DNA of 58,362 nucleotides from a bacterium (lineage in GTDB: Bacteria; UBP15; UBA6099; DSWB01): positions 1-58,362 of the forward strand of contig JAGUYV010000086.1 of assembly GCA_020061125.1 (NCBI GenBank), in the 5' to 3' direction. Each line of letters starts with the position of its first letter. Positions within the stretch are counted from its first letter, which is position 1. Below, piece after piece: positions 183 to 28,862 of this stretch. A program made the position numbers and the translations under genes. The notes below the pieces were generated by a model. It made no database searches and was not told where the DNA came from. It saw only the letters and a list, made by a program, of their open reading frames with translations.

Positions 183-3100
183 TTACTTTTCAATCACATT
201 GAACTGGTGCTCGTCGCTGTGGCCGCCGATTTCCGGGAAGTACATGAGCCAGGCGCGGGCGGGCAGGGCGGACACGGTTCCGGGGATCTCCGCGCGGATC
301 CGGTAGGTCATGTCGTAGGTCTCGCCGTTGTTCATGCGCGTGGCGAAGAACGCCACCTTGTCGTCGCGGATTTCTTTCTGCGGGTACCACCAGCGCCAGT
401 AGCCGTAGTAGTATGTGTCGTCCTGTTCCTCTTTGACAACCTCGAAGCCGCTGGGCAGCATGTCCTCGATGATGACATATTCGCGTACGCCTTTGGGGAT
501 CGCGGCGAGGTGCACGAAGATTTCGTCGCCGGGCTTGATCTGCGAGGTGTGGCGCAGCTTGTTCTTGCCTTCCTTGTCGAACGAGTAATAGCGCGACACA
601 TGGATGCCGTTGTTCTGTGACTGGATTTTCTTCTCCGAGGCGAACCATTCGAGATGCGCGGTGTAATACAGCTTGCCCTTGCCGCCGCGGGTAATCTCGA
701 TTTTGTTCTCGCCAGTCACGAGTTTGTCCTTGATGTCGTCGAGGGTGATGGAGAGCGCGGGCTTGAACACATCCTCTTTGGAAAAATGCCCTGACAGCGC
801 CTTGACGCCGTTCACCGACACCGTGAAGTCCAGATCCGGCTCCAGAACTTCGCGTTTGAGCGTGTAATCGGTGAGGGCCATGACCGCGGCGGCGGTGTCC
901 TTGGTGGAGTACCAGTGGTTTCCGTTGCGGCGGCTCACAAGATAGCGAACGACTTTGGGCGCGATGGCGGATTCCTGGTCCACGGCCATGATCGCCTTGA
1001 GGACATAAGCCGTGGTCTCAATGGTGTTGTCCATCCAGCCCCAGCGGTCCGTTGGCGCGTTCCAGTTGGCCAGGGGACCGGACACCGCGGCGCTCTTTTC
1101 CAGCGCGCGGATGATCTCAAGCGCTTTGTCGTGATTGCCGGAACGCTCCATCACAATGGCGAGCAGGGCCTGGGAATAGGCATTGATCTTTTTATAATTC
1201 TTGATCGCGGCGTCCACCCTCTTGGAGGGCAGGTTTTCGCCGGTTTCGGAAAGGGCGAACAGCATATAGGAAAGCGTCTGCGTGTCCTTCTCGTCTTCGA
1301 TGAGCTTGCGCAGAGCCGTAATGCCGCGGTTGTACATGTCCTTGTCAACCGGGTAATCGGCTTTGGTCGCGTTGGCCAGTCCGTAAATTACATAAGCGGT
1401 CATGAAGGCGTGTGTTGTGTCGTTCTTCCACCAGCCCCAGCCGCCGTCGTCGTGCTGCATGTCCTGAAGCCGGTCGTGGCCCTTCTTGAACATGTCCGGC
1501 AGTTCCTTGAGCTTGTCGCTTGCCGGGAGGTTGAGCTTCTGCATGGCCTGTCCCACGATGATGTTGGGCAGGAACCGGCTCATGGTCTGTTCCACACAGC
1601 CGTAGGGATAGCCCACGAGGTAGTCGAGGCTCTCGAACATGGCGGCGGCGATGGAGGGGGCGGCGCTGATGCGCAGAGCGGTGGCGCCCTTGATGGCGTT
1701 TGCGGGCAGCTTGAGCGAAGCCGGTGTTTTGTCCTTGTCCGCTTCGCCGGAGGCCGCGACGGTGCGGCGGATTCCATGCGGCAGCACCGGAATGGTGAGC
1801 TGCATGGCGTCGGATTCCTCGTCCGTGAGCGCCTTGACCGTGATCCATGCGTCCTGCGGGGATTCAACCACGGCGGGCCACTCCACGCGCACATCGCCGC
1901 CTGATGGCACGGTGATGGTCTTGTCGCCGCCGTCAATCAGCTTCACGCCCTTGGCGTTCAGCACACACTTGACTTTCTTGTTAGTGGCCAGATAATTGTG
2001 CACCACGGCCACGATGTTGAGCTTGTCGTCCTGGGTGAAGAACCTTGGTGTTTCGAGGCGAACAAGCAGGTTCTTGCGCACAATGGTCTCGCCCGTGCTG
2101 TTGCCGACTTTGGTGTCGCCGGTGATGGCGCGTGCCGTGGCGCGCCATGTGGTGAGGGAATCGGGCATGGGGAAAGTCACGGTTGCGGCGCCGTTTTTGT
2201 CCGTGACCAGGTGCGCGTACCAGGCTGCGGTATCGCTGAAGTTGGAGCGGATTTCGGGCTGCACCAGCGCGCCTTCGCCATCCTTGGGCTTTGCCGCGGA
2301 TTTGCGCGCCATGCCCGCGGTGGCGTCCATGTCTGCCATTGCGGGCGCGGCCATTGGCATTTCCTCGGCCATTTCCATGCCTTTTGTCATCACATCGTCA
2401 TAAATGTCTCCGTAGCGGTAAGCCATTTCCCACAGGGATACATTGGTGGCCACTTTGTTCCAGCGGCGGCCGTAGAAGAACTTGCGCGCATCCGGGATGT
2501 TTTCGGGCTGCAATGCGTAGATGGATTCGTCCACCACGCCCAGGGACAGCTCCGCGTCCGCGGCGGGCTTGCCCTGGCTGTCTTTGGCCGTGACCGTGAA
2601 TGTGGCGTTCTCCCCGGGTTTGTACTCGGCTTTGTCCGCGGACACGGTGATGTCCAGGAATTTGTGATCGGGCGGCACCACCAGGTTTTTGGACTCGGAG
2701 TCGTAGGAGTTATCCTTGACCATGGCCGTGGTGATGTACACATTGGGCTGCATTTCTTCGGTGACAGTGAACTCGAAGAGCGCGGAGCCGTCCTTGAGTT
2801 CCAGAACCGCATATTTGTAAATGCGGTCGGCTTCGAGACTCACCAGCACGGACGCGCCCGGAGCGCCTGTGATGAGAGCGCGCGCGGTGTCGCCCAGGGC
2901 GTAAGAATCCTTGTCCAGAACGATGTCCGCGCCGCCGCCGCCCCAGAACGAGATACTGCTCGAGTTGTCCATGGCGTATGCGGTGGTGTAGGCGCTAACC
3001 GTGTTGCCTTTTGTATCTTTCGCCCTGCCGGTGATCGAGAAATAACCGGAGCGGTCCGGCACGAAGTCCAGGGCCGCCTTGCCGTTCTTGTTCGTGTGCG

Positions 3101-4757
3101 CGGTTTTCACGAAGATCTTCTCTTCGGAGCGCTCGTAGTTGCGTTTTTCATCCCAGGACACCATGCTGATTTCGAAATCCACGGCCTGTTCGGCCACGGG
3201 CGTTCCATCGTGGGAATTGATCTGCGCCGATATCTTGATGGTGTCGGAAGGCTTGTACATGTAACGGTCCGTATCGAGATAAATGGTGAATTCCGCGCGG
3301 GTGGCTTTCACTGAACCCGCGCCCGCAACCTGGCGGCGGCTCTTGTCCGTGACGAACGCGGTCAGTGTGTAAATCATGTCGTTGTCGCGGTCTTTGTCCG
3401 TATCCACGGTTACAGACGCCTTGCCATGATCGTCGGTGCGCAGTTCGCCGCCAGTCACATATTGCGACCCGTAAGAGTAGGAATAATCCTCTTCATCGTA
3501 GTACCAGGAATAGCGGCCCCAGCCCCAGTAGGAATACACGGGCGCAGCGTTGACCTCGTAGCGCAGTTCTGCATCCTTGACCGGTTCGCCGAAGTAATAT
3601 TTCACATCAATGTCAAAGGTGATGGAATCGCCCAGCAGCGCTCGGGCTTTGTCCGGGGTCACCACGACCTCGAATTCGGGCTTGCGGTATTCCTCGACCG
3701 TGAAGCTCTGCCAGTGCTCCTGGCCGCCGACTCTCACCACGATCTGATATTGCCCGATGGGAGGCTCCTCGCCCAGCTTGAACTTGCCGGACAGGGCGCC
3801 GAAATCGTTAAGTGTCTTTTTCTCTTTGAGAACCGTGTTGTTCTTGGAATCCTTGATCTCGATTTCAGCCTCGGTGACGCCATCGGGCAGACTGTAGACA
3901 TTGCCCTTTGCGTAGCGGATGGTGGACTTGTAATTGACCTCGTGTCCGGGGCGGTACACGGGCCTGTCGGTCACGGTGTAGGCCGTGTATCCCTCGAAAT
4001 ATTCCGAATACCAGTTGTACACATTCATGAACGCCACATGGCCCTTCCAGCGCGCCACCACGGGAAGGGAATCCGCTGCGGCATCTATGGGCAGCTCGGC
4101 CACGCCGTCTTTGTCGGTTACGGATTTGAGGTCTATCTTGCCTTCCTTGAGTGTGAACACATCGGCCTTGTTCACCGCCGTGCCGGTGAAACGGTTGGTG
4201 ACGAAGAGCACGGTTCGCGAACCCTCGCGCTTGGAAATCATGGCCAGATCGGTGACGATGAACGGAATGAACCGGGTTGTTTTTCCGGCCGTGGCGTACA
4301 ACAGATACACGCCTGGTCCGGGGTTCTTGATTTTCTCGCTGATGTTTATGTAGCGGCTTAAATCACCAGATTCACGGTTGCCTTTGACGGTCCACTCGCG
4401 CACGGATTCCGCGCTTTTGAATTTGACCGGATCCGGATTCTCCTGATTTTCCGGACTTTGTGCAGATGTGAGCAGATCCATGAGATCCACGCGCACAAGA
4501 TTCAGAGCCAGGGAAGTGTAATTGTATCCTGAAAACTGAATGTCAATATCTTTCTGTTCCGTGCCGATCAGGGAATCGCAGCGGATATAGATCTGTGGCA
4601 TCGGCTCCTCCTCCGCGCTGTTGATGATTTTCGCGCCGGAAAATACGAGCACGGACGCGATCACAGCCAGAATACACAAAGCGGCGGGCAGGATTCTGTA
4701 CATCGCAAGCCTGGCTCCCTGTCTTTTCCGGCCCTTGTGATCGGATTTGGTTTTCAT
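183..4757 (-). CDS. Alpha-2-macroglobulin family protein (bacterial A2M, thioester type)
   Basis: Predicted 1524-residue envelope-anchored alpha-2-macroglobulin, a family thought to trap proteases that reach the periplasm. A basic N-terminus and one hydrophobic segment (about residues 20-41) form a signal anchor; there is no lipobox cysteine. MG-type beta-sandwich repeats follow (RPVYRPGHEVNYK), then a Met/Ala-rich disordered insert near residues 795-835, the A2M core (MPDSLTTWRATA) and a thiol-ester domain with GCVEQ, reactive Cys1054 and Gln1057. Aromatic-rich patches such as YYYGYWRWWYP are usual in the family. The start at 4757 was chosen because GAGGAG lies about 8 bases upstream; the frame extends 31 codons further only to a TTG lacking such a site. 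E. coli-type A2M genes usually sit beside pbpC; here no class A penicillin-binding protein is near. An intrinsic terminator follows. Confidence 0.93.
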   Translation of the reverse strand: MKTKSDHKGRKRQGARLAMYRILPAALCILAVIASVLVFSGAKIINSAEEEPMPQIYIRCDSLIGTEQKDIDIQFSGYNYTSLALNLVRVDLMDLLTSAQSPENQENPDPVKFKSAESVREWTVKGNRESGDLSRYINISEKIKNPGPGVYLLYATAGKTTRFIPFIVTDLAMISKREGSRTVLFVTNRFTGTAVNKADVFTLKEGKIDLKSVTDKDGVAELPIDAAADSLPVVARWKGHVAFMNVYNWYSEYFEGYTAYTVTDRPVYRPGHEVNYKSTIRYAKGNVYSLPDGVTEAEIEIKDSKNNTVLKEKKTLNDFGALSGKFKLGEEPPIGQYQIVVRVGGQEHWQSFTVEEYRKPEFEVVVTPDKARALLGDSITFDIDVKYYFGEPVKDAELRYEVNAAPVYSYWGWGRYSWYYDEEDYSYSYGSQYVTGGELRTDDHGKASVTVDTDKDRDNDMIYTLTAFVTDKSRRQVAGAGSVKATRAEFTIYLDTDRYMYKPSDTIKISAQINSHDGTPVAEQAVDFEISMVSWDEKRNYERSEEKIFVKTAHTNKNGKAALDFVPDRSGYFSITGRAKDTKGNTVSAYTTAYAMDNSSSISFWGGGGADIVLDKDSYALGDTARALITGAPGASVLVSLEADRIYKYAVLELKDGSALFEFTVTEEMQPNVYITTAMVKDNSYDSESKNLVVPPDHKFLDITVSADKAEYKPGENATFTVTAKDSQGKPAADAELSLGVVDESIYALQPENIPDARKFFYGRRWNKVATNVSLWEMAYRYGDIYDDVMTKGMEMAEEMPMAAPAMADMDATAGMARKSAAKPKDGEGALVQPEIRSNFSDTAAWYAHLVTDKNGAATVTFPMPDSLTTWRATARAITGDTKVGNSTGETIVRKNLLVRLETPRFFTQDDKLNIVAVVHNYLATNKKVKCVLNAKGVKLIDGGDKTITVPSGGDVRVEWPAVVESPQDAWITVKALTDEESDAMQLTIPVLPHGIRRTVAASGEADKDKTPASLKLPANAIKGATALRISAAPSIAAAMFESLDYLVGYPYGCVEQTMSRFLPNIIVGQAMQKLNLPASDKLKELPDMFKKGHDRLQDMQHDDGGWGWWKNDTTHAFMTAYVIYGLANATKADYPVDKDMYNRGITALRKLIEDEKDTQTLSYMLFALSETGENLPSKRVDAAIKNYKKINAYSQALLAIVMERSGNHDKALEIIRALEKSAAVSGPLANWNAPTDRWGWMDNTIETTAYVLKAIMAVDQESAIAPKVVRYLVSRRNGNHWYSTKDTAAAVMALTDYTLKREVLEPDLDFTVSVNGVKALSGHFSKEDVFKPALSITLDDIKDKLVTGENKIEITRGGKGKLYYTAHLEWFASEKKIQSQNNGIHVSRYYSFDKEGKNKLRHTSQIKPGDEIFVHLAAIPKGVREYVIIEDMLPSGFEVVKEEQDDTYYYGYWRWWYPQKEIRDDKVAFFATRMNNGETYDMTYRIRAEIPGTVSALPARAWLMYFPEIGGHSDEHQFNVIEK

Positions 4758-4808
4758 GGCGTTTCTCCTCTTGCAGTTGTTTGTGCGGATTTCGGACGAC
4801 GCTGTTTC

Positions 4809-4814
4809 ATTATA
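4809..4814 (-). promoter_or_regulatory. Candidate -10 box for the alpha-2-macroglobulin gene
   Basis: A perfect TATAAT on the minus strand, 51 bases upstream of the ATG at 4757, in the 132-bp gap after the propeller gene. No good -35 hexamer sits at 16-18 bp, so it is a moderate call. It implies the gene can be transcribed separately from the upstream operon. Confidence 0.45.
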
Positions 4815-4889
4815 CCGCCCCGCATAAGGCATAAGACAGGCGAGGATCAAAAATGTTCACATTCCGGTTGTGTGATGGAGATTACATTT

Positions 4890-21146: not shown

Positions 21147-24100
21147 CTATTCACACTTCAAACCCGGTTCCGCAAGGCATTCGCCGTACAGGTTGAAGTT
21201 CTGGAAGTAGGCCGTGGTGCAGATGTTGCAGTCGCTCCCGCGCGCTTTGCCGCGCACTATGAAGTCGCTGCCGTCCTCTTTGACCTCGATTTTGAAGGAA
21301 CCCGGCTCGCATGCGGCTTCCACCATGTCCTTGACCTTGCCTTTGCACTGGCCTGCGCTGCAGCCCGCGAACAGAGGCATGTACTGGGGCAGATTCGCGC
21401 CCGCGGGGTCCAGGCCGGTATAGCTCATGGATTCCTGGTCGTAGGAATAGGCGAACACGCCTTCCTTGACATAGCCAAGGGCGTGGGAGCACGCCTCGAA
21501 GTTTTCTTCCACCATGATGCCGCGCGCCCACTCCAGGCCCTGGCCGTGGGGCAGCTTGACGATAGCTTTCCGATCCAGATCCTGTGCTATGTCCAGACTC
21601 ACGCGGTCCGGCAGGGCTCGGACCGTGATCTGGCCCTTGCCCACGATGCCCATGACATTGAGCAGGAATTCGCCCTTGGCGCGCTCGCGGTCGCGGATGG
21701 CCTTGGGCTTGGTCTTGTCCTCGGCGCCCACAAAAAGGATTTCCTTCGCAAACCGGCGGGCCTGCTGCGGGTTCACGCTCATCTTGAAAGTGGCGCTCTC
21801 CTCGGCGATCTTGCCCTTGCCCCCGGCCATGAATTCTTCGAGCACATCGGGATCCAGGCTGATGAAAGCGTGGTTTCCGCTGTAGCCGATGAGCAGGCGC
21901 ATATCCTCGCCGTACTGGATGAGCGTGGGCAGGCGCACGGCCAGGATGTTTGCGCCGCGGCGCTCCACGGCCATGTGCTCACCCGCGGCCGCCAGGGCCT
22001 CCACATCGCCTTCGTACAACTCGCCCGCTTTGCGCTTGTTGCTCAACGCCACGGCGCTTTCCACAACCTTGGCGAGATACTCGAAGTCACGGACTTCCAC
22101 CGCAGCGATGAATTTGGGAATGTATCCGAAGGTCTCTCTGTCGAACTTAATGTCCATGAGCGAGAACCCGGCCTCGGAGCCGAGCGCGCCCGCGATGCCC
22201 TGCATGCTTGTGCCCATGAGTTCCAGATCCTTGCGCAGCGCCACCATGCCCTCGTCGTTGGACTTCATGATCACATTGTCGTTGACATTGGTGAGAATGT
22301 CGCTCAAGTTGCTGATGGACATATACATGATGGAATCGCCGGTGCGGATCAGGCCGTCAACCTGGTGTTTGGCGGACTGGTACTGGTACACTTTGCTGAT
22401 GTAGTCCGTGCCCGCAACTTTGTCTTTGTGCAGCAGAATGTCCAGGGACAGGCGCGGGGAAATGCCGTCAAACGATTTCACGAACAGAACGCCTCGAACG
22501 GCCTTGAGTTCCTTGGCGAGCATCTGCCACTTTTCGAGTTTGGCTTGCGTCGGAGATTTCATAGGAGCGGCTTCTGCTGCGGGTACCGAGGCATCTGCTG
22601 CCGCCTCCATGTCCGCATCAGCCTCCGTCTCCATGCCGGGTTCCGCTGTGTCCGCGGTTTCGGCCATGGTTTCGTCCTGATATTCCTGCTCCATGGCCGC
22701 ATCCGCGGTCTCGCTTTCGAATGCGGCGGATTCGTCCATGGACATGGAATCATCGCTGTAGTCTTCGTAACTGGAGGTGTTCCATTCCTCCTCCATCTTG
22801 ATCATTTCCTGCAGGGAATCAATCTGGCTCTGCACCATCATGGCCATGGCGTCGCCGCTGGCGTAAGCAAAGCCCGCGTAGGATTTGGGAATGTCTTCGC
22901 CCAATTCATCCTGGAGAGATGCGGCCTTGCCGGCTGAAGCGTCTGCAATTTTTTTGAAATAGGGTTCGCTGATGGTGACGACCACGGCGTTCTTGAGGGA
23001 ACCGATCAGCACCATGGGGCGGTCGAGCTGCCCGGGTTTGGAGGCCGCGTCGCTGTAAATTCTGTACTCGGCGCCTGCGTATGTCATGACGCCTTCGTCC
23101 TTGATCTTCATATCCGGGAAATTGGCTTTGACGAACATGGAAGCGATTTGCTCGAAGGTGGCGGCGGCCTTTTTGCCGTCCGTGGCGCTGATGAACAGCG
23201 CGGCCTCTGGATTTTCCTGTTCGCGTTCGGGCATGCCGCCAACGGTCATGGCGAATTCGCCGCCGTACCAGCCGCCGTTCACCAGCAGGCCGATGCTCCT
23301 GCCCGCGATTGCGGCCAGCTTCGCGATGTTCATGATTTCTGAAACTGAAGTGCGAACGCGTGGCGGCGCGCCGTACTCTTCTGACATGTAATCGTCGCCG
23401 CCGTCCATGCCGTCGAATTCGTCAAGGGATCCGGCTTCCCAGTCCTGATTTTCCTGCATGGCCATTTCTTCGGCCATGGCGGCCGCGTCATCAGCCGAGG
23501 GAATTTCGGGGGCTGTGCCCATGGCGTTTTTGGCTTCTTGGACAAAAGCGATTGTGTCCCTGACCCGTTCGGGAGTCATGAGCGCGGTCCAGATATTGTT
23601 CATCACAGCTTTGGAAGTGTTGGTGTCAACGGCCAAAACCAGGGCCGGGGCCGCGGGGATTGCGCCCGCCAGGGACGGCAGTTTGTCATCCGCTGCGGGC
23701 GGGACAACCTGGTCCTTGATTTTGCCCATGAGCTTCTCAAGAGGCAGTTTGTGGACTCCGACCACGGACACATCCTGAACGAGCGTGGCCTGAACCATGC
23801 GGGGCGTGCAGGATACGGAAAGCTCGGTGGTTCGGTACATGTTTTTAAAGTCTTCGACGGTGCGAATGAAACTCCAGCCAGGCAACTGGTTGAACAGTTT
23901 GTCCATGGCGCGAGGCGCATTCATGGTCATGTGAATGTTCGACACCTGCGGAGAGGCGGCGCCCCTGGCGCGCTTGAGGTGATCGTCGAGCGTGCCCTGG
24001 TCCAGGCTGGCGTACAGGAACCGGTCCTTGAATCCGATGACCGGCTTCATGCCTTCGGGCAGTTTGAGATGCGCAGGCAAAGCCACTTCCCAGGCGTTTT

Positions 24101-25388
24101 CCGCGGTCTTTTTGATGTCAATTTTCGGATTGAAGCCCTTGAGGACTTTGTTCGCAGCTTCGATGACCAAGTCCTTGTCATTGACTTCCAGAGCGCCGAT
24201 GGCCTTGAACATCAGGCTTCCGTCCGCTCCGGCGCTAAAGTCAATAATCGAGCCGGCGGCCTCGGAGCCGAGCGCCGCAGCCAGCTTTTCGGGATCCATG
24301 CCAAGGTCTTTACGCAGATCGGCGAGCTGCTTTTTATCCAGGGAAGCGAGCGCGGCATTGGCCATGTCTCCAACATTATTCACGGACAGATAAAGCAGTG
24401 AGGCCTCGCTGCTCACGCGGCTGGACACGCGGTGCGCGGACGGCTCGAACGAGGCAAGTTTCGAAAGCACGGCGGTGTCTTTGAGTTTTTTGTCATCAAG
24501 AACCAGGCCGAAGCGCACTTCGGGGGAAAGATTGCGGTAAGACAGGCTGTAGAGCGCGCCTTTCACGGCCGCAGCTTCTTTGGCCAGAAGCTCGTCGGCG
24601 ATAGGCATATCCAGGCCCTTGAGCACTTTGGCGCGGTCTGCGTACACATACATCAGATAATTGTCCGGCACATCCTTGAGGCGCAGGTCCGCCAACTGTT
24701 TCTGCCTCTGGGTGCGCTTGCCGTTAATCGAGGAAACCACGGTCTTGAGCATGTCCGCGGACGGGCTGACGACCAGGGCGCGCTTTGTGGACGCCCAGCA
24801 GAACGCGCCCACCACGCTCTCGGGATTCTGATTGCAGTGCAGGGTCACGCCCGCATGCTGCGTGTCCTTGAATTCGATTTTCTGCGCGCGGATCTTCTTG
24901 GCCTTTTCCGGGGATTCCTCTTCCGCGGATTTGGCGGACTCCTCTTTGATGAGTTCCAGCATTTTGGGGAAGTTTTTTTCGGCTTTGCCCTTATTGCGGG
25001 AGCCGACGAGAACCGCGAAAGCCGGATCGCCGGAATCCTCGAAACTGCCCACGACCATGACTTCACGGGTGAGCCAGGGCATGGCCAGTTTCACCATCTT
25101 GCCGGGCATGCCGGAATCGTCTTCTTCCTCTTCTTCATCGGTTTTCATGAGGTCGGAGAACCGGCCCAGGCCGATGGCGCGAATGTACTTAAACGCCGTG
25201 TTGCCCGCGTTGTACAGGTCAATGGAAACCACGATGGCGGCATCGTCGGGCGCGGCGTCGGCCAGGGGCTTGGGCGTGAGAAACGGCCGCACCATGGACG
25301 CATACATCAGGGCCGCTACCGCGGCGATTACGACCACGACGCCAAGGATGATTTTTCCGGCATTGGATTTTTTGGCGGTTCCGGACAT
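21147..25388 (-). CDS. Giant DUF3352-like signal-anchored envelope protein with internal duplication
   Basis: A 1413-residue protein with a Lys-rich N-terminus, one membrane anchor (KIILGVVVVIAAVAALMYAS, about residues 11-30) and a very long exported part. The start LADAAPDDAAIVVSID and several later blocks resemble DUF3352, a family of unknown function. The unit occurs twice: LYLSVNNVGDMANA...LRKDLGMDPEKLAAALGSEA near residue ~350 and MYMSISNLSDI...LRKDLELMGTSMQGIAGALGSEA near ~1080, each followed by a matching pocket segment (VIGFKDRFLYASLD and LIGYSGNHAFISLD). Between them lie two acidic, Met-rich low-complexity stretches (~650-700 and ~880-960). Three Cys pairs sit at the C-terminus. GGAGG seven bases before the ATG fixes the start. 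It is monocistronic: own promoter and own terminator. Function unknown. Confidence 0.75.
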   Translation of the reverse strand: MSGTAKKSNAGKIILGVVVVIAAVAALMYASMVRPFLTPKPLADAAPDDAAIVVSIDLYNAGNTAFKYIRAIGLGRFSDLMKTDEEEEEDDSGMPGKMVKLAMPWLTREVMVVGSFEDSGDPAFAVLVGSRNKGKAEKNFPKMLELIKEESAKSAEEESPEKAKKIRAQKIEFKDTQHAGVTLHCNQNPESVVGAFCWASTKRALVVSPSADMLKTVVSSINGKRTQRQKQLADLRLKDVPDNYLMYVYADRAKVLKGLDMPIADELLAKEAAAVKGALYSLSYRNLSPEVRFGLVLDDKKLKDTAVLSKLASFEPSAHRVSSRVSSEASLLYLSVNNVGDMANAALASLDKKQLADLRKDLGMDPEKLAAALGSEAAGSIIDFSAGADGSLMFKAIGALEVNDKDLVIEAANKVLKGFNPKIDIKKTAENAWEVALPAHLKLPEGMKPVIGFKDRFLYASLDQGTLDDHLKRARGAASPQVSNIHMTMNAPRAMDKLFNQLPGWSFIRTVEDFKNMYRTTELSVSCTPRMVQATLVQDVSVVGVHKLPLEKLMGKIKDQVVPPAADDKLPSLAGAIPAAPALVLAVDTNTSKAVMNNIWTALMTPERVRDTIAFVQEAKNAMGTAPEIPSADDAAAMAEEMAMQENQDWEAGSLDEFDGMDGGDDYMSEEYGAPPRVRTSVSEIMNIAKLAAIAGRSIGLLVNGGWYGGEFAMTVGGMPEREQENPEAALFISATDGKKAAATFEQIASMFVKANFPDMKIKDEGVMTYAGAEYRIYSDAASKPGQLDRPMVLIGSLKNAVVVTISEPYFKKIADASAGKAASLQDELGEDIPKSYAGFAYASGDAMAMMVQSQIDSLQEMIKMEEEWNTSSYEDYSDDSMSMDESAAFESETADAAMEQEYQDETMAETADTAEPGMETEADADMEAAADASVPAAEAAPMKSPTQAKLEKWQMLAKELKAVRGVLFVKSFDGISPRLSLDILLHKDKVAGTDYISKVYQYQSAKHQVDGLIRTGDSIMYMSISNLSDILTNVNDNVIMKSNDEGMVALRKDLELMGTSMQGIAGALGSEAGFSLMDIKFDRETFGYIPKFIAAVEVRDFEYLAKVVESAVALSNKRKAGELYEGDVEALAAAGEHMAVERRGANILAVRLPTLIQYGEDMRLLIGYSGNHAFISLDPDVLEEFMAGGKGKIAEESATFKMSVNPQQARRFAKEILFVGAEDKTKPKAIRDRERAKGEFLLNVMGIVGKGQITVRALPDRVSLDIAQDLDRKAIVKLPHGQGLEWARGIMVEENFEACSHALGYVKEGVFAYSYDQESMSYTGLDPAGANLPQYMPLFAGCSAGQCKGKVKDMVEAACEPGSFKIEVKEDGSDFIVRGKARGSDCNICTTAYFQNFNLYGECLAEPGLKCE

Positions 25389-25456
25389 GAACTTCCTCCA
25401 TGTAGGCTTTTGTGAAACAGGCCGCGGGCGCATGCCCGGCGGCACAAACAGGTTAG

Positions 25457-25623: not shown

Positions 25624-25968
25624 ATGATCCATAATCAACAGAGCAAGCCGTTGGTCGAGGTTTCTGAAAACAGCAACGAAGTCGTTTTCATCATCAAAGG
25701 GGATCTGGAACAGGGCCGCATGAGCGATTTCAGCCGGGCCATGGATCTGGAACTCAAAAAGAAACAGGATAGGGATCTGGTCATTGATCTTGACCGATGC
25801 CGGTTTGTGGACAGCGGCAACCTGGGCGTGATATCGCAGGCGCACCGGGATCTGTCAAGCCGCGGGCGCGCCCTGCGCCTCATCAATGTGCAGAAGGGGG
25901 TGGCCGCCACCCTGGCCTGCACCAGCCTGGATAAGATTTTCGACATCCGGCTCAAAAACGGCGGTTGA
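25624..25968 (+). CDS. STAS-domain protein (anti-sigma factor antagonist-like)
   Basis: A 114-residue single STAS domain similar to SpoIIAA/RsbV antagonists, which switch partners by phosphorylation of a serine. The core DLVIDLDRCRFVDSGNLGVI aligns with the SpoIIAA phosphoacceptor region; Ser64 in VDSGNLG is the likely target, although the usual DSSGLG reads DSGNLG. No partner kinase or anti-sigma factor is in the window, so its regulon is unknown. It appears to be the first gene of an operon with a tiny membrane protein and two phosphohexomutases, suggesting regulation linked to sugar or cell-wall metabolism; that link is inference from position. No strong Shine-Dalgarno precedes the ATG. 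Confidence 0.85.
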   Translation: MIHNQQSKPLVEVSENSNEVVFIIKGDLEQGRMSDFSRAMDLELKKKQDRDLVIDLDRCRFVDSGNLGVISQAHRDLSSRGRALRLINVQKGVAATLACTSLDKIFDIRLKNGG

Positions 25969-25976
25969 AGCCAAGC

Positions 25977-26111
25977 ATGCGCATGTACCTTTTTTACATA
26001 TTCCAGGCGGGCCTGACGGCGCTGATTGTTTTTGCCGTGGCGTACGCATTTCTGGAATCAACCCGTCCGGATCCGGATCCCGAATGCGCGGAGGACCATG
26101 AACCCGCTTAA
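25977..26111 (+). CDS. Small single-pass membrane protein (44 aa)
   Basis: A 44-residue frame in the gap after the STAS gene. It begins MRMYLFYIFQ, has one strongly hydrophobic helix (about residues 4-26) and an acidic, Pro-rich tail (PDPDPECAEDHEPA). Its ATG lies 8 bases after the STAS stop and its TAA overlaps the start of the first phosphohexomutase by 14 bases, the arrangement of a coupled operon gene. No clear ribosome site is visible, so translation could depend on coupling to the STAS gene. The composition is that of a real membrane peptide rather than a random frame, but no family is recognised. Alternative: plain spacer. Confidence 0.5.
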   Translation: MRMYLFYIFQAGLTALIVFAVAYAFLESTRPDPDPECAEDHEPA

Positions 26112-27447
26112 AATCAGCATCACCGGAGTGCGCGGCGTGGTGGGCGAAACCCTGACGCCGCATCTGGTGGTCCAGTTCGCGCAGGCGTTCGGCTCGTACA
26201 TCGGCGGCGGCCGCGTGTTCGTGTGCAACGACGCGCGCCACTCAGCGGCCATGGTTCGCTCCGCCGCATTGAGCGGCCTGTTGTCCACGGGGTGCGAGCC
26301 GGTGGACTTCGGCGTGTGCCCAACCCCCGGCATGCAGTTCGCGCTCATCGGCTCACGCGCATCCGGCGGCATCGCCATCTCCGCGGGGCACAACCCCGAG
26401 GACTGGAACGCCCTGCGCTTCATTCGCGGCGACGGCATGTATTTCAACGCCCAGGAGGGTGACGCGCTGCTGGATGTGTATCACGCTGGCAATTTCACAA
26501 AAACCGCCTGGGATGGATTCAAAAAGGTTCATATCAAACGCGATCCGTTTGGCGCGCATCTGAAAAAAATCCGCACGGTGTTCGATGCGGACCGCATAAA
26601 GAAGCGCAAATTCCACATTGCCGTGGACACCTGCAACGGCGCATGCTCCGAGGCCGCACCGCGCCTGCTCGAATCCCTGGGCTGCAAGGTCACGGTCATC
26701 CACGACCAGCCCGGAAGCCCGTTCCCTCACGATCCCGAACCCACGCGACGCAATATGCAGACTCTGTGCGCGGTGGTCAAGGCCGCGGGGTGCGACGCCG
26801 GGTTCATGTTCGACACGGCCGGGGATCGGCTTGGCGTGGTCACGGACAAAGGCGAAGCACTGTTCGAGGAACATCTGCTGCCCCTGTGCGTGATGCTGCA
26901 AATGCAGGAAACGCCAGGAACGGTGGTCACGAACTTGAGCACCACGCGAGCCGTGGACGACGCGGCCAACGCCGCGGGCGCGCAGGTCATCCGCACGCCC
27001 ATAGGCCAGGCCTATGTGGCCGAGGCTGCTTTCAAGAACAGGGCCGTGATCGCGGGCGAGGGCAGCGGCGGCATTATCCTGCCCGCCGTGCAGAACAACA
27101 ACGACAGCCTGGCCGCCATGGCGTTTCTGCTGCACCATCTGGCGCGGCGCCGCGTGAGAATCTCGACCCTTGCGGACAAGACGCCGCGCTACGAAATGCG
27201 CAAGCATAAAGCGGCCATGGATTTCACCCGCATCTATTCCGCCATACAGCACGCGCGGCAGGCCGCGGCGCGCGAATTCCCGGGTGCGCGCATGGCACTC
27301 GACGACGGCGTGAAGCTCGAATGGCGCGACGCATGGCTGCACCTGCGACCGAGCAACACCGAATCCGTGATCCGCATTATCGCCGAAGCGCGCACTTCGT
27401 CGCGCGCGGACAATCTCCTGCAAGCGGGCATGGAGCTGATTTCCTGA
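26098..27447 (+). CDS. Phosphohexomutase paralogue with degenerate active site (possible pseudoenzyme)
   Basis: A 449-residue member of the alpha-D-phosphohexomutase family (phosphoglucosamine/phosphomanno-mutases), clearly a duplicate of the next gene. Fold and substrate elements remain: GVRGVVGETLTP, GEGSGGI sugar loop and RPSNTESVIRI phosphate loop. But the phosphoserine loop, TASHNP in active enzymes, reads SAGHNP, placing Gly97 where the catalytic Ser should be. The metal loop DxDxDR reads DTAGDR, with Ala241 replacing the middle Asp. The early GRDTR motif is CNDAR. Phosphotransfer by the normal mechanism seems impossible, so a regulatory or sugar-phosphate-binding role, or a heteromer with its active twin, is more likely. 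The ATG at 26098 follows GCGGAGGACC. There is no frameshift or stop, so it is not simply decaying. Confidence 0.88.
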   Translation: MNPLKISITGVRGVVGETLTPHLVVQFAQAFGSYIGGGRVFVCNDARHSAAMVRSAALSGLLSTGCEPVDFGVCPTPGMQFALIGSRASGGIAISAGHNPEDWNALRFIRGDGMYFNAQEGDALLDVYHAGNFTKTAWDGFKKVHIKRDPFGAHLKKIRTVFDADRIKKRKFHIAVDTCNGACSEAAPRLLESLGCKVTVIHDQPGSPFPHDPEPTRRNMQTLCAVVKAAGCDAGFMFDTAGDRLGVVTDKGEALFEEHLLPLCVMLQMQETPGTVVTNLSTTRAVDDAANAAGAQVIRTPIGQAYVAEAAFKNRAVIAGEGSGGIILPAVQNNNDSLAAMAFLLHHLARRRVRISTLADKTPRYEMRKHKAAMDFTRIYSAIQHARQAAAREFPGARMALDDGVKLEWRDAWLHLRPSNTESVIRIIAEARTSSRADNLLQAGMELIS

Positions 27448-27488
27448 ACGCCCGCGGCAATCCGTAAGGGAAAGGCGCTTACCGCCGC

Positions 27489-28862
27489 ATGAAACCGGTC
27501 CAGACACTCAAGATCAGCATATCGGGCGTACGCGGCGTGGTGGGCGACAGCCTCACGCCGGATCTGCTCGTGCGCTTCGCCCAGAGTTTCGGCACCTATG
27601 TCGGCCCGCAAACCGTGGTCATCGGCCGCGACACGCGCACCAGCGGCGAGATGGTCAAACACGCCGTGCTCGGCGGCCTCATCAGCTCCGGATGCAAGGT
27701 CGTGGATCTGGATATTGTCCCCGTGCCTACTGTGCAGTTCATGGTGCGAAACCTGCGCGCCGCGGGCGGCATCGCCATCACCGCAAGCCACAATCCCGCG
27801 CAGTGGAACGCTCTCAAGTTCATCCGCGGCGACGGATGCTTCCTGAACCATTACCAGGCGCGCGAACTCATTGACATCTACCACCAGGGCGAATACCGTA
27901 CCGTGCCCGGCCGTCAGATGTGCGAACCGCGCCGCAATGCGCGCGCCGTATCTCTGCACGCAACCGCAATCATCGAGAAAATCGGGAAACTCCCGGCCCG
28001 CGGCAAAAAACTCCTGGCCGTGGTTGACAGCGTGAACGGGGCGGGGTCTGTCATGGCCGCGCCGTTTCTCGAAAGCCTGGGCTGCAAAGTCGTGACCATC
28101 AACAGCAAACCGGACGGCATTTTTCCGCGGCCGCCGGAACCGCTGCCGCAGAACCTCACGGACCTGTGCCACGCCGTGCGCCGCCACAACGCCGACATCG
28201 GTTTCGCCCAGGACGCGGATGCGGACCGCCTGGCCGTGGTGTCCGAAAAAGGGCTTCCCATCGGCGAGGACTTTACCCTGGCCCTGGCCGTGGATTTCGT
28301 GCTGTCCCGCGAGAAGGGGACCGTGGTGGTGAATCTGGCCACCTCGCATGTGATAGACGACATCGTGAAGCGGCGCAAATGCCGGTTGCTCAAAAGCAAA
28401 ATCGGCGAGATCAATGTCACGGAACTCATGATGCAGGAAAACGCGGTCATAGGCGGCGAAGGCAACGGCGGGGTTATCTATCCGGCCGTGAACATGGGGC
28501 GGGACAGTTTCACCGGCATGGCGCTCATCATGCACCTGCTGGCGCAAAGCGCGCGTCCCGTGTCACAGATTGTCGCCCGCTTGCCGCGTTACTCCATGCA
28601 CAAGGCCGCGGTGCCGTGTCCCCAGGAGTTGGTTGTGGAAGTCATGGATCGCCTGGCGCGCGAGGTTTCAGGCAAGAATGTGGATCGTACAGACGGTCTG
28701 AAGATCCAGACCCCGAAAGGCTGGATTCTGATGCGGGCCAGCAACACCGAGCCGATTCTGCGCGTGGTCGCCGAAGCCGGAGACCCCGAAGCCGCAGCCG
28801 CGCTCAACGCCGGGTTCAGGGAAAAAGTCGAAAGCCTGATTCGCAGCGCCGCAGCCAGATAG
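27489..28862 (+). CDS. Phosphoglucosamine mutase/phosphomannomutase family protein (active-site intact)
   Basis: A 457-residue phosphohexomutase moving a phosphate between C1 and C6 of a hexose phosphate; phosphoglucosamine mutase (GlmM, toward UDP-GlcNAc) is the most likely activity but phosphomannomutase cannot be excluded. All four active-site loops are present: GVRGVVGDSLTP, TASHNP with phosphoserine Ser100, DADADR (Asp242, 244, 246) for magnesium, the sugar loop GGEGNGGVIYPAV and the phosphate loop RASNTEPILRVV. GEGNGG is a small variation of the usual GExSGH. It lies 41 bp after its degenerate twin, with which it shares long stretches (LKISISGVRGVVGDSLTP versus LKISITGVRGVVGETLTP). The purine-rich AAGGGAAAGG is rather far upstream. 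Confidence 0.92.
   Translation: MKPVQTLKISISGVRGVVGDSLTPDLLVRFAQSFGTYVGPQTVVIGRDTRTSGEMVKHAVLGGLISSGCKVVDLDIVPVPTVQFMVRNLRAAGGIAITASHNPAQWNALKFIRGDGCFLNHYQARELIDIYHQGEYRTVPGRQMCEPRRNARAVSLHATAIIEKIGKLPARGKKLLAVVDSVNGAGSVMAAPFLESLGCKVVTINSKPDGIFPRPPEPLPQNLTDLCHAVRRHNADIGFAQDADADRLAVVSEKGLPIGEDFTLALAVDFVLSREKGTVVVNLATSHVIDDIVKRRKCRLLKSKIGEINVTELMMQENAVIGGEGNGGVIYPAVNMGRDSFTGMALIMHLLAQSARPVSQIVARLPRYSMHKAAVPCPQELVVEVMDRLAREVSGKNVDRTDGLKIQTPKGWILMRASNTEPILRVVAEAGDPEAAAALNAGFREKVESLIRSAAAR

Follow-up and report, generated by a model that had tools for sequence, protein, structure and literature searches.

The window considered here, the whole 58,362-nucleotide stretch of DNA that was analysed, belongs to a 4.1-Mb MAG that is 79% complete. 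It carries two adjacent phosphohexomutase genes, copy 1 and copy 2, both with intact reading frames (Table 1). The genes are separated by 41 nt, and their products are about 41% identical. All four phosphohexomutase domains of Pfam (PF02878, PF02879, PF02880, and PF00408) score above the gathering threshold in copy 1, and the four are above the cut-off in copy 2 as well. The loops of copy 2 are all canonical, namely TASHNP, DADADR, GRDTR, GEGNGG, and RASNTE. In the phosphohexomutase superfamily, the serine is the phosphocarrier. Copy 1 lacks it and reads CNDAR at residues 43–47. The initial annotation had reported the loss of this serine and of the middle metal aspartate in copy 1, and all of its residue readings for both copies were found to be correct when the loops were re-read in the translations.

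Table 1. Features of the phosphohexomutase pair and of the genes immediately upstream (window positions).
Feature	Position	Strand	Remarks
STAS-domain protein (PF01740)	25624–25968	+	next upstream gene in the window
Tiny single-pass membrane protein, 44 aa	25977–26111	+	acidic tail; overlaps the start of copy 1
Copy 1, putative pseudo-phosphohexomutase, 449 aa	26098–27447	+	four domains present; phosphoserine absent; metal site degenerate
Copy 1 codons 95–100, SAGHNP	26380–26397	+	Gly97 (ggg, 26386–26388) in place of the phosphocarrier serine
Copy 1 codons 239–244, DTAGDR	26812–26829	+	degenerate metal-binding loop, Ala241 at the place of the middle Asp; canonical form DxDxDR
Copy 1 codons 320–325, GEGSGG	27055–27072	+	sugar-binding loop, retained
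Copy 1 codons 417–422, RPSNTE	27346–27363	+	phosphate-binding loop, retained
Copy 2, canonical phosphohexomutase of Arch_GlmM type, 457 aa	27489–28862	+	TIGR03990 512.5 bits, cut-off 439

Elsewhere in the window, positions 183–4850 of the reverse strand encode a 1555-aa protein that resembles alpha-2-macroglobulin and has a GCVEQ thioester-type motif, as judged from the sequence alone. A 1432-aa protein with acidic Met/Asp/Glu-rich stretches, apparently one large domain repeated twice, is encoded at 21147–25445, also on the reverse strand.

Copy 1 is a member of the alpha-D-phosphohexomutase superfamily by fold, with four domains and a model TM of about 0.9 to solved members. Its AlphaFold2 model is a complete and confident fold (pLDDT 92.9, pTM 0.92), to which the archaeal enzymes 9du5 (TM 0.92) and 1wqa are the closest solved structures. 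Both copies share fold, domain order, and length with the archaeal-type GlmM/phosphomannomutase-phosphoglucomutase group (TIGR03990; 1wqa, 9du5, 2f7l). In contrast to archaeal-type GlmM, copy 1 scores 425.9 bits with the TIGR03990 Arch_GlmM equivalog, under the curated cut-off of 439, and has neither the serine nor a normal metal loop. Of the features that mark a phosphohexomutase enzyme, the catalytic phosphoserine in T/S-x-S-H-N-P and the metal-binding DxDxD loop are missing from copy 1, and the sugar-loop GEGxG and the phosphate-loop RxSxTE are present.

Copy 2 was also considered as the only GlmM of its genome, and this was ruled out. On the reverse strand of contig 162 (L001, G000:C162), a canonical bacterial GlmM is encoded directly downstream of a CdaR/YbbR-like gene, the order these two genes have in the Firmicutes c-di-AMP operon. 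Copy 2 is therefore not the housekeeping GlmM.

A search for further adjacent pairs, proposed together with the initial annotation, showed that the pair recurs. Four relatives from another family of the same order (UBP15) carry it, and their copy 1, which is 56% identical to that of the window, reads SAGHNS and DTAGER. Copy 1 was not matched in two other members of the window's order (G001 and G005). Among the named genomes scanned, pairs turned up in one Acidobacteria gp11 MAG (AA57) and in two Aminicenantes MAGs. Of 297 Acidobacteriota genomes sampled, a group that includes Aminicenantes, 31 matched the copy 1 profile, and almost all of these have the two genes side by side; this prevalence hinges, like the others given here, on E-value thresholds and genome sampling. 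Two of four genomes of a further small phylum also have the pair. In a domain-wide sample of 386 genomes, with loops read locus by locus for the best 30 loci, the match table held an adjacent pair only for the window's order and this small phylum. The same substitutions occur in the 56%-identical relatives and, as a class, across Acidobacteriota in sequences mostly from MAGs, so they are not due to chance. Viral carriage of the pair was considered as well, and no relative was found in a scan of viral contigs.

Pairing of the two genes is strict. Judging from the match tables, no copy-2-like gene occurs without copy 1 among the 31 matching Acidobacteriota genomes; the presence of copy 1 in every one of them was read from the tables and the loop listing, which covers all but G124, rather than genome by genome. 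In 14 of 32 measurable pairs the stop codon of one gene runs into the start codon of the other by 1 or 4 nt, and the genes are at most 15 nt apart in 24 of the 32. This frequent overlap suggests translational coupling of the pair. Together with the strict pairing, it supports the reading favoured here, with a probability of about 0.6, that copy 1 is an ancient duplicate and pseudoenzyme that serves copy 2 as a partner subunit, binding a ligand without catalysis. On the other side, pairing and overlap fit any shared pathway equally well, the copies are separated by gaps of 205–390 nt in G137 and G258, and in one genome (L099, G352:C130) copy 1 and its copy 2 are on different contigs, the only such case seen.

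The upstream genes bear on a different reading, in which copy 1 stands on its own, sensing a sugar phosphate and signalling to a target other than copy 2, with the tiny protein placing it at the membrane in UBP15. The initial annotation had placed the pair in an operon with the tiny membrane protein and a STAS switch, as a candidate metabolite-to-signal module. In the four UBP15 relatives, a similar 37-aa ORF lies directly before copy 1 (TGA then ATG), and the codon changes between relatives are too few for a selection test. A tiny membrane ORF beside the pair was not found outside UBP15, and this part of the proposed operon thus holds within UBP15 and not beyond it. The STAS part had to be abandoned. 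The four same-order relatives have an unrelated SRPBCC-like gene upstream, and STAS was not beside the pair in these relatives or in other contexts, which rules out a STAS operon as a conserved module; the STAS gene is probably not part of the pair's unit. A free sensor would agree with the retained ligand loops, with the conservation of the membrane ORF in UBP15, and with the example of GlmM, a phosphohexomutase known to moonlight in regulating the membrane cyclase CdaA (PMC8573169). The GlmM–CdaA case shows that a phosphohexomutase can have a regulatory role through protein binding and be linked to a membrane protein, although that GlmM is an active enzyme, unlike copy 1. The lack of conserved STAS adjacency, the confinement of the membrane ORF to UBP15, and the fact that copy 2 is the only constant partner in three groups make a free-standing sensor unlikely.

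The active site of copy 1 has been lost in more than one form. Across 36 distinct copy 1 sequences, the serine position reads [AG]GHN, with glycine for serine, in 29, the SHN motif is wholly lost in two, and serine is kept in five. The five serine-keeping sequences form one subclade with N-x-D-[GV]-D-R, in which the first metal aspartate is lost, and WVRG. Besides DTAGDR in the window, metal loops among the copy 1 sequences include DADGER, DAEGER, NSDxSR, NxDxDR, and NLDxxx. GEGxG is kept in all 36 sequences and RxSxTE in 34, the two most eroded reading RPSRNE or RPSRND. Among the columns lost in copy 1 but conserved both in copy 2 and across single-copy relatives are S97, D239, D243, K107, and E304 (to Gln). 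Columns retained by 90% or more of the copy 1 sequences include R12, H98, N99, E321, G322, R417, S419, T421, E422, and R426. About half of the copy 1 sequences no longer have the lysine of the HNPxxWNALK motif. In the Pseudomonas enzyme, the lysine matching Lys107 acts as a general base. As is well established for this family, the lost columns carry out phosphoryl transfer, and the kept columns hold the sugar and the phosphate. The roles of the phosphohexomutase loops have been summarised (PMC7761743). One copy 2 also has unusual loops (L158; 102–1547, reverse strand), reading VMASDHPVEWSA at the serine loop and GSGGNGG at the sugar loop, and these may be assembly errors or belong to a copy 2 that is decaying too.

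These patterns are relevant to whether copy 1 is still catalytic, either as a weak mutase that starts from a bisphosphate sugar or in a different sugar-phosphate reaction. Its binding residues are kept together with His98 and Asn99, one subclade retains serine, and residual activity without the serine is possible from the residues present. The open-licence literature yielded neither a report that a SAGHNP homologue is active nor activity figures for serine-to-alanine phosphohexomutase mutants. A catalytic copy 1 is nevertheless quite improbable, given that the phosphocarrier is absent in 31 of the 36 sequences, that two metal aspartate positions are degenerate, that the HNP-motif lysine has disappeared so often, and that the routes of loss differ between subclades.

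In a maximum-likelihood tree built with the trait columns removed, all copy 1 rows formed one clade with a support of 100/100, which points to an ancient duplication. Copy 2 rows grouped at 92/76 in the same tree, and other phosphohexomutases fell outside both copies. Every bootstrap tree called for a minimum of two serine-to-glycine changes in copy 1. The trees of the two copies run parallel, with a distance correlation of 0.84 over 33 pairs, and copy 1 has evolved at about 1.3 times the rate of copy 2. The dN/dS values obtained inside a single UBP15 family were 0.014–0.048 for copy 1 and 0.05–0.06 for copy 2; only within-family values were used because synonymous sites approach saturation when the window is compared with that family. 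Purifying selection on copy 1 is at least as strong as that on copy 2, and its frame is open in every genome that carries it.

Copy 1 thus combines a conserved loss of catalytic residues with purifying selection, which is the sequence signature of a pseudoenzyme. Because the binding loops are kept, the catalytic residues are lost, dN/dS is low, and the genes overlap, the view of the initial annotation that copy 1 is a maintained pseudoenzyme, apparently catalytically dead, is well supported. A recent mutation confined to this genome, which would have spoken against that view, is ruled out along with a pseudogene by the glycine in close relatives, the low dN/dS, and the single clade. That copy 1 is a decaying duplicate or an assembly artefact, as its missing catalytic residues might suggest, is almost certainly wrong in view of the open frames, the dN/dS range, and the presence of 36 sequences from several phyla and independent assemblies in one clade.

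If copy 1 is a non-catalytic subunit of copy 2, an archaeal-type GlmM/phosphohexomutase would have undergone an ancient duplication that gave rise to both copies, which would have been inherited since then as a two-gene unit. Copy 2 would be the working mutase. Copy 1 would have lost the parts for phosphoryl transfer (the serine, the metal aspartates, and often the HNPxxWNALK lysine) and kept its grip on sugar and phosphate, and it should still bind a sugar phosphate without turnover. The two proteins would associate as a heteromer, with copy 1 stabilising or regulating copy 2 through ligand binding or through packing alone, and in UBP15 the tiny co-encoded membrane protein may tether the complex. 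A bolder and more tentative proposal, with chances slightly below even, is that the pair represents a new bacterial class of heteromeric phosphohexomutases, in which an active GlmM-like subunit is gated by a dead but obligate paralogue acting as sensor for an amino-sugar phosphate, the phosphoserine having been lost independently and repeatedly in the sensor.

The neighbours of the pair give an indication of the ligand. A NagA-like gene is found near the pair in two Acidobacteriota loci, above the cut-off in L095 and below it in L096. NagB lies directly downstream of the pair in L090 and L096, above the cut-off, and in L105 by similarity. In the Aminicenantes-type genomes of L090 (7854–9704) and L105 (10490–12337), this NagB is fused to a GHMP kinase, an unusual fusion, and a GHMP kinase alone is near the pair in L102. 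An N-acetylhexosamine-1-kinase-like gene is located upstream of three serine-keeping copies, with NahK as the best solved match (1.2e-29, L154 checked). Further neighbours are a beta-N-acetylhexosaminidase (L105), NamZ (L133), and a galactokinase (L056). Because the pair adjoins NagA, NagB, hexosamine-kinase-like, and wall-recycling genes, the ligand in Acidobacteriota is likely to be an (N-acetyl)glucosamine-type phosphate, and the neighbourhoods suggest that the pair serves hexosamine-phosphate interconversion in salvage or wall recycling there. Many other Acidobacteriota pairs are without amino-sugar neighbours, as are the window's pair and the UBP15 pairs. NagA and NagB profiles gave only sub-threshold matches in the incomplete window genome; therefore, the amino-sugar assignment there is carried over from Acidobacteriota.

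Phosphohexomutases are regarded as enzymes that work as monomers or homo-oligomers and in which the phosphoserine is nearly universal. In the open-licence literature, no published description of a bacterial pair of an active and a dead phosphohexomutase was found, and nothing relevant beyond PGM5. PGM5, or aciculin, is an inactive phosphoglucomutase of vertebrates and a structural protein of muscle (PMC7761743, PMC5570346). Like copy 1, it is a phosphohexomutase paralogue that is catalytically dead yet still binds substrate, binding being predicted for copy 1 from its loops. Unlike copy 1, PGM5 has retained both the TASH serine and the metal aspartates, and other loops account for its inactivity (PMC5570346, PMC7761743). 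PGM5 is an animal protein, whereas copy 1 has lost the serine itself and is half of a bacterial two-gene unit. PGM5 is the closest precedent, yet copy 1 appears from its residues to have lost activity by a different route.

Similarity-based annotation would label both copies phosphoglucosamine mutase. If the proposed role is true, the dead partner would be an unsuspected control of sugar-phosphate metabolism in Acidobacteriota and their relatives. The copy 1 series, with serine kept, replaced by glycine, or the motif erased, offers natural material on the change from enzyme to regulator. Nucleotidyltransferase–phosphohexomutase fusions of about 840 aa also contain a mutase-like domain without the serine motif and the metal loop in the example that was read, but the fused domain is only 22–24% identical to copy 1. 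One such fusion in the window genome (L005, G000:C272; frame 325–2847, 841 aa) reads HRISPYMP and DGEAEK, and similar frames of 830–910 aa are present in many sampled genomes.
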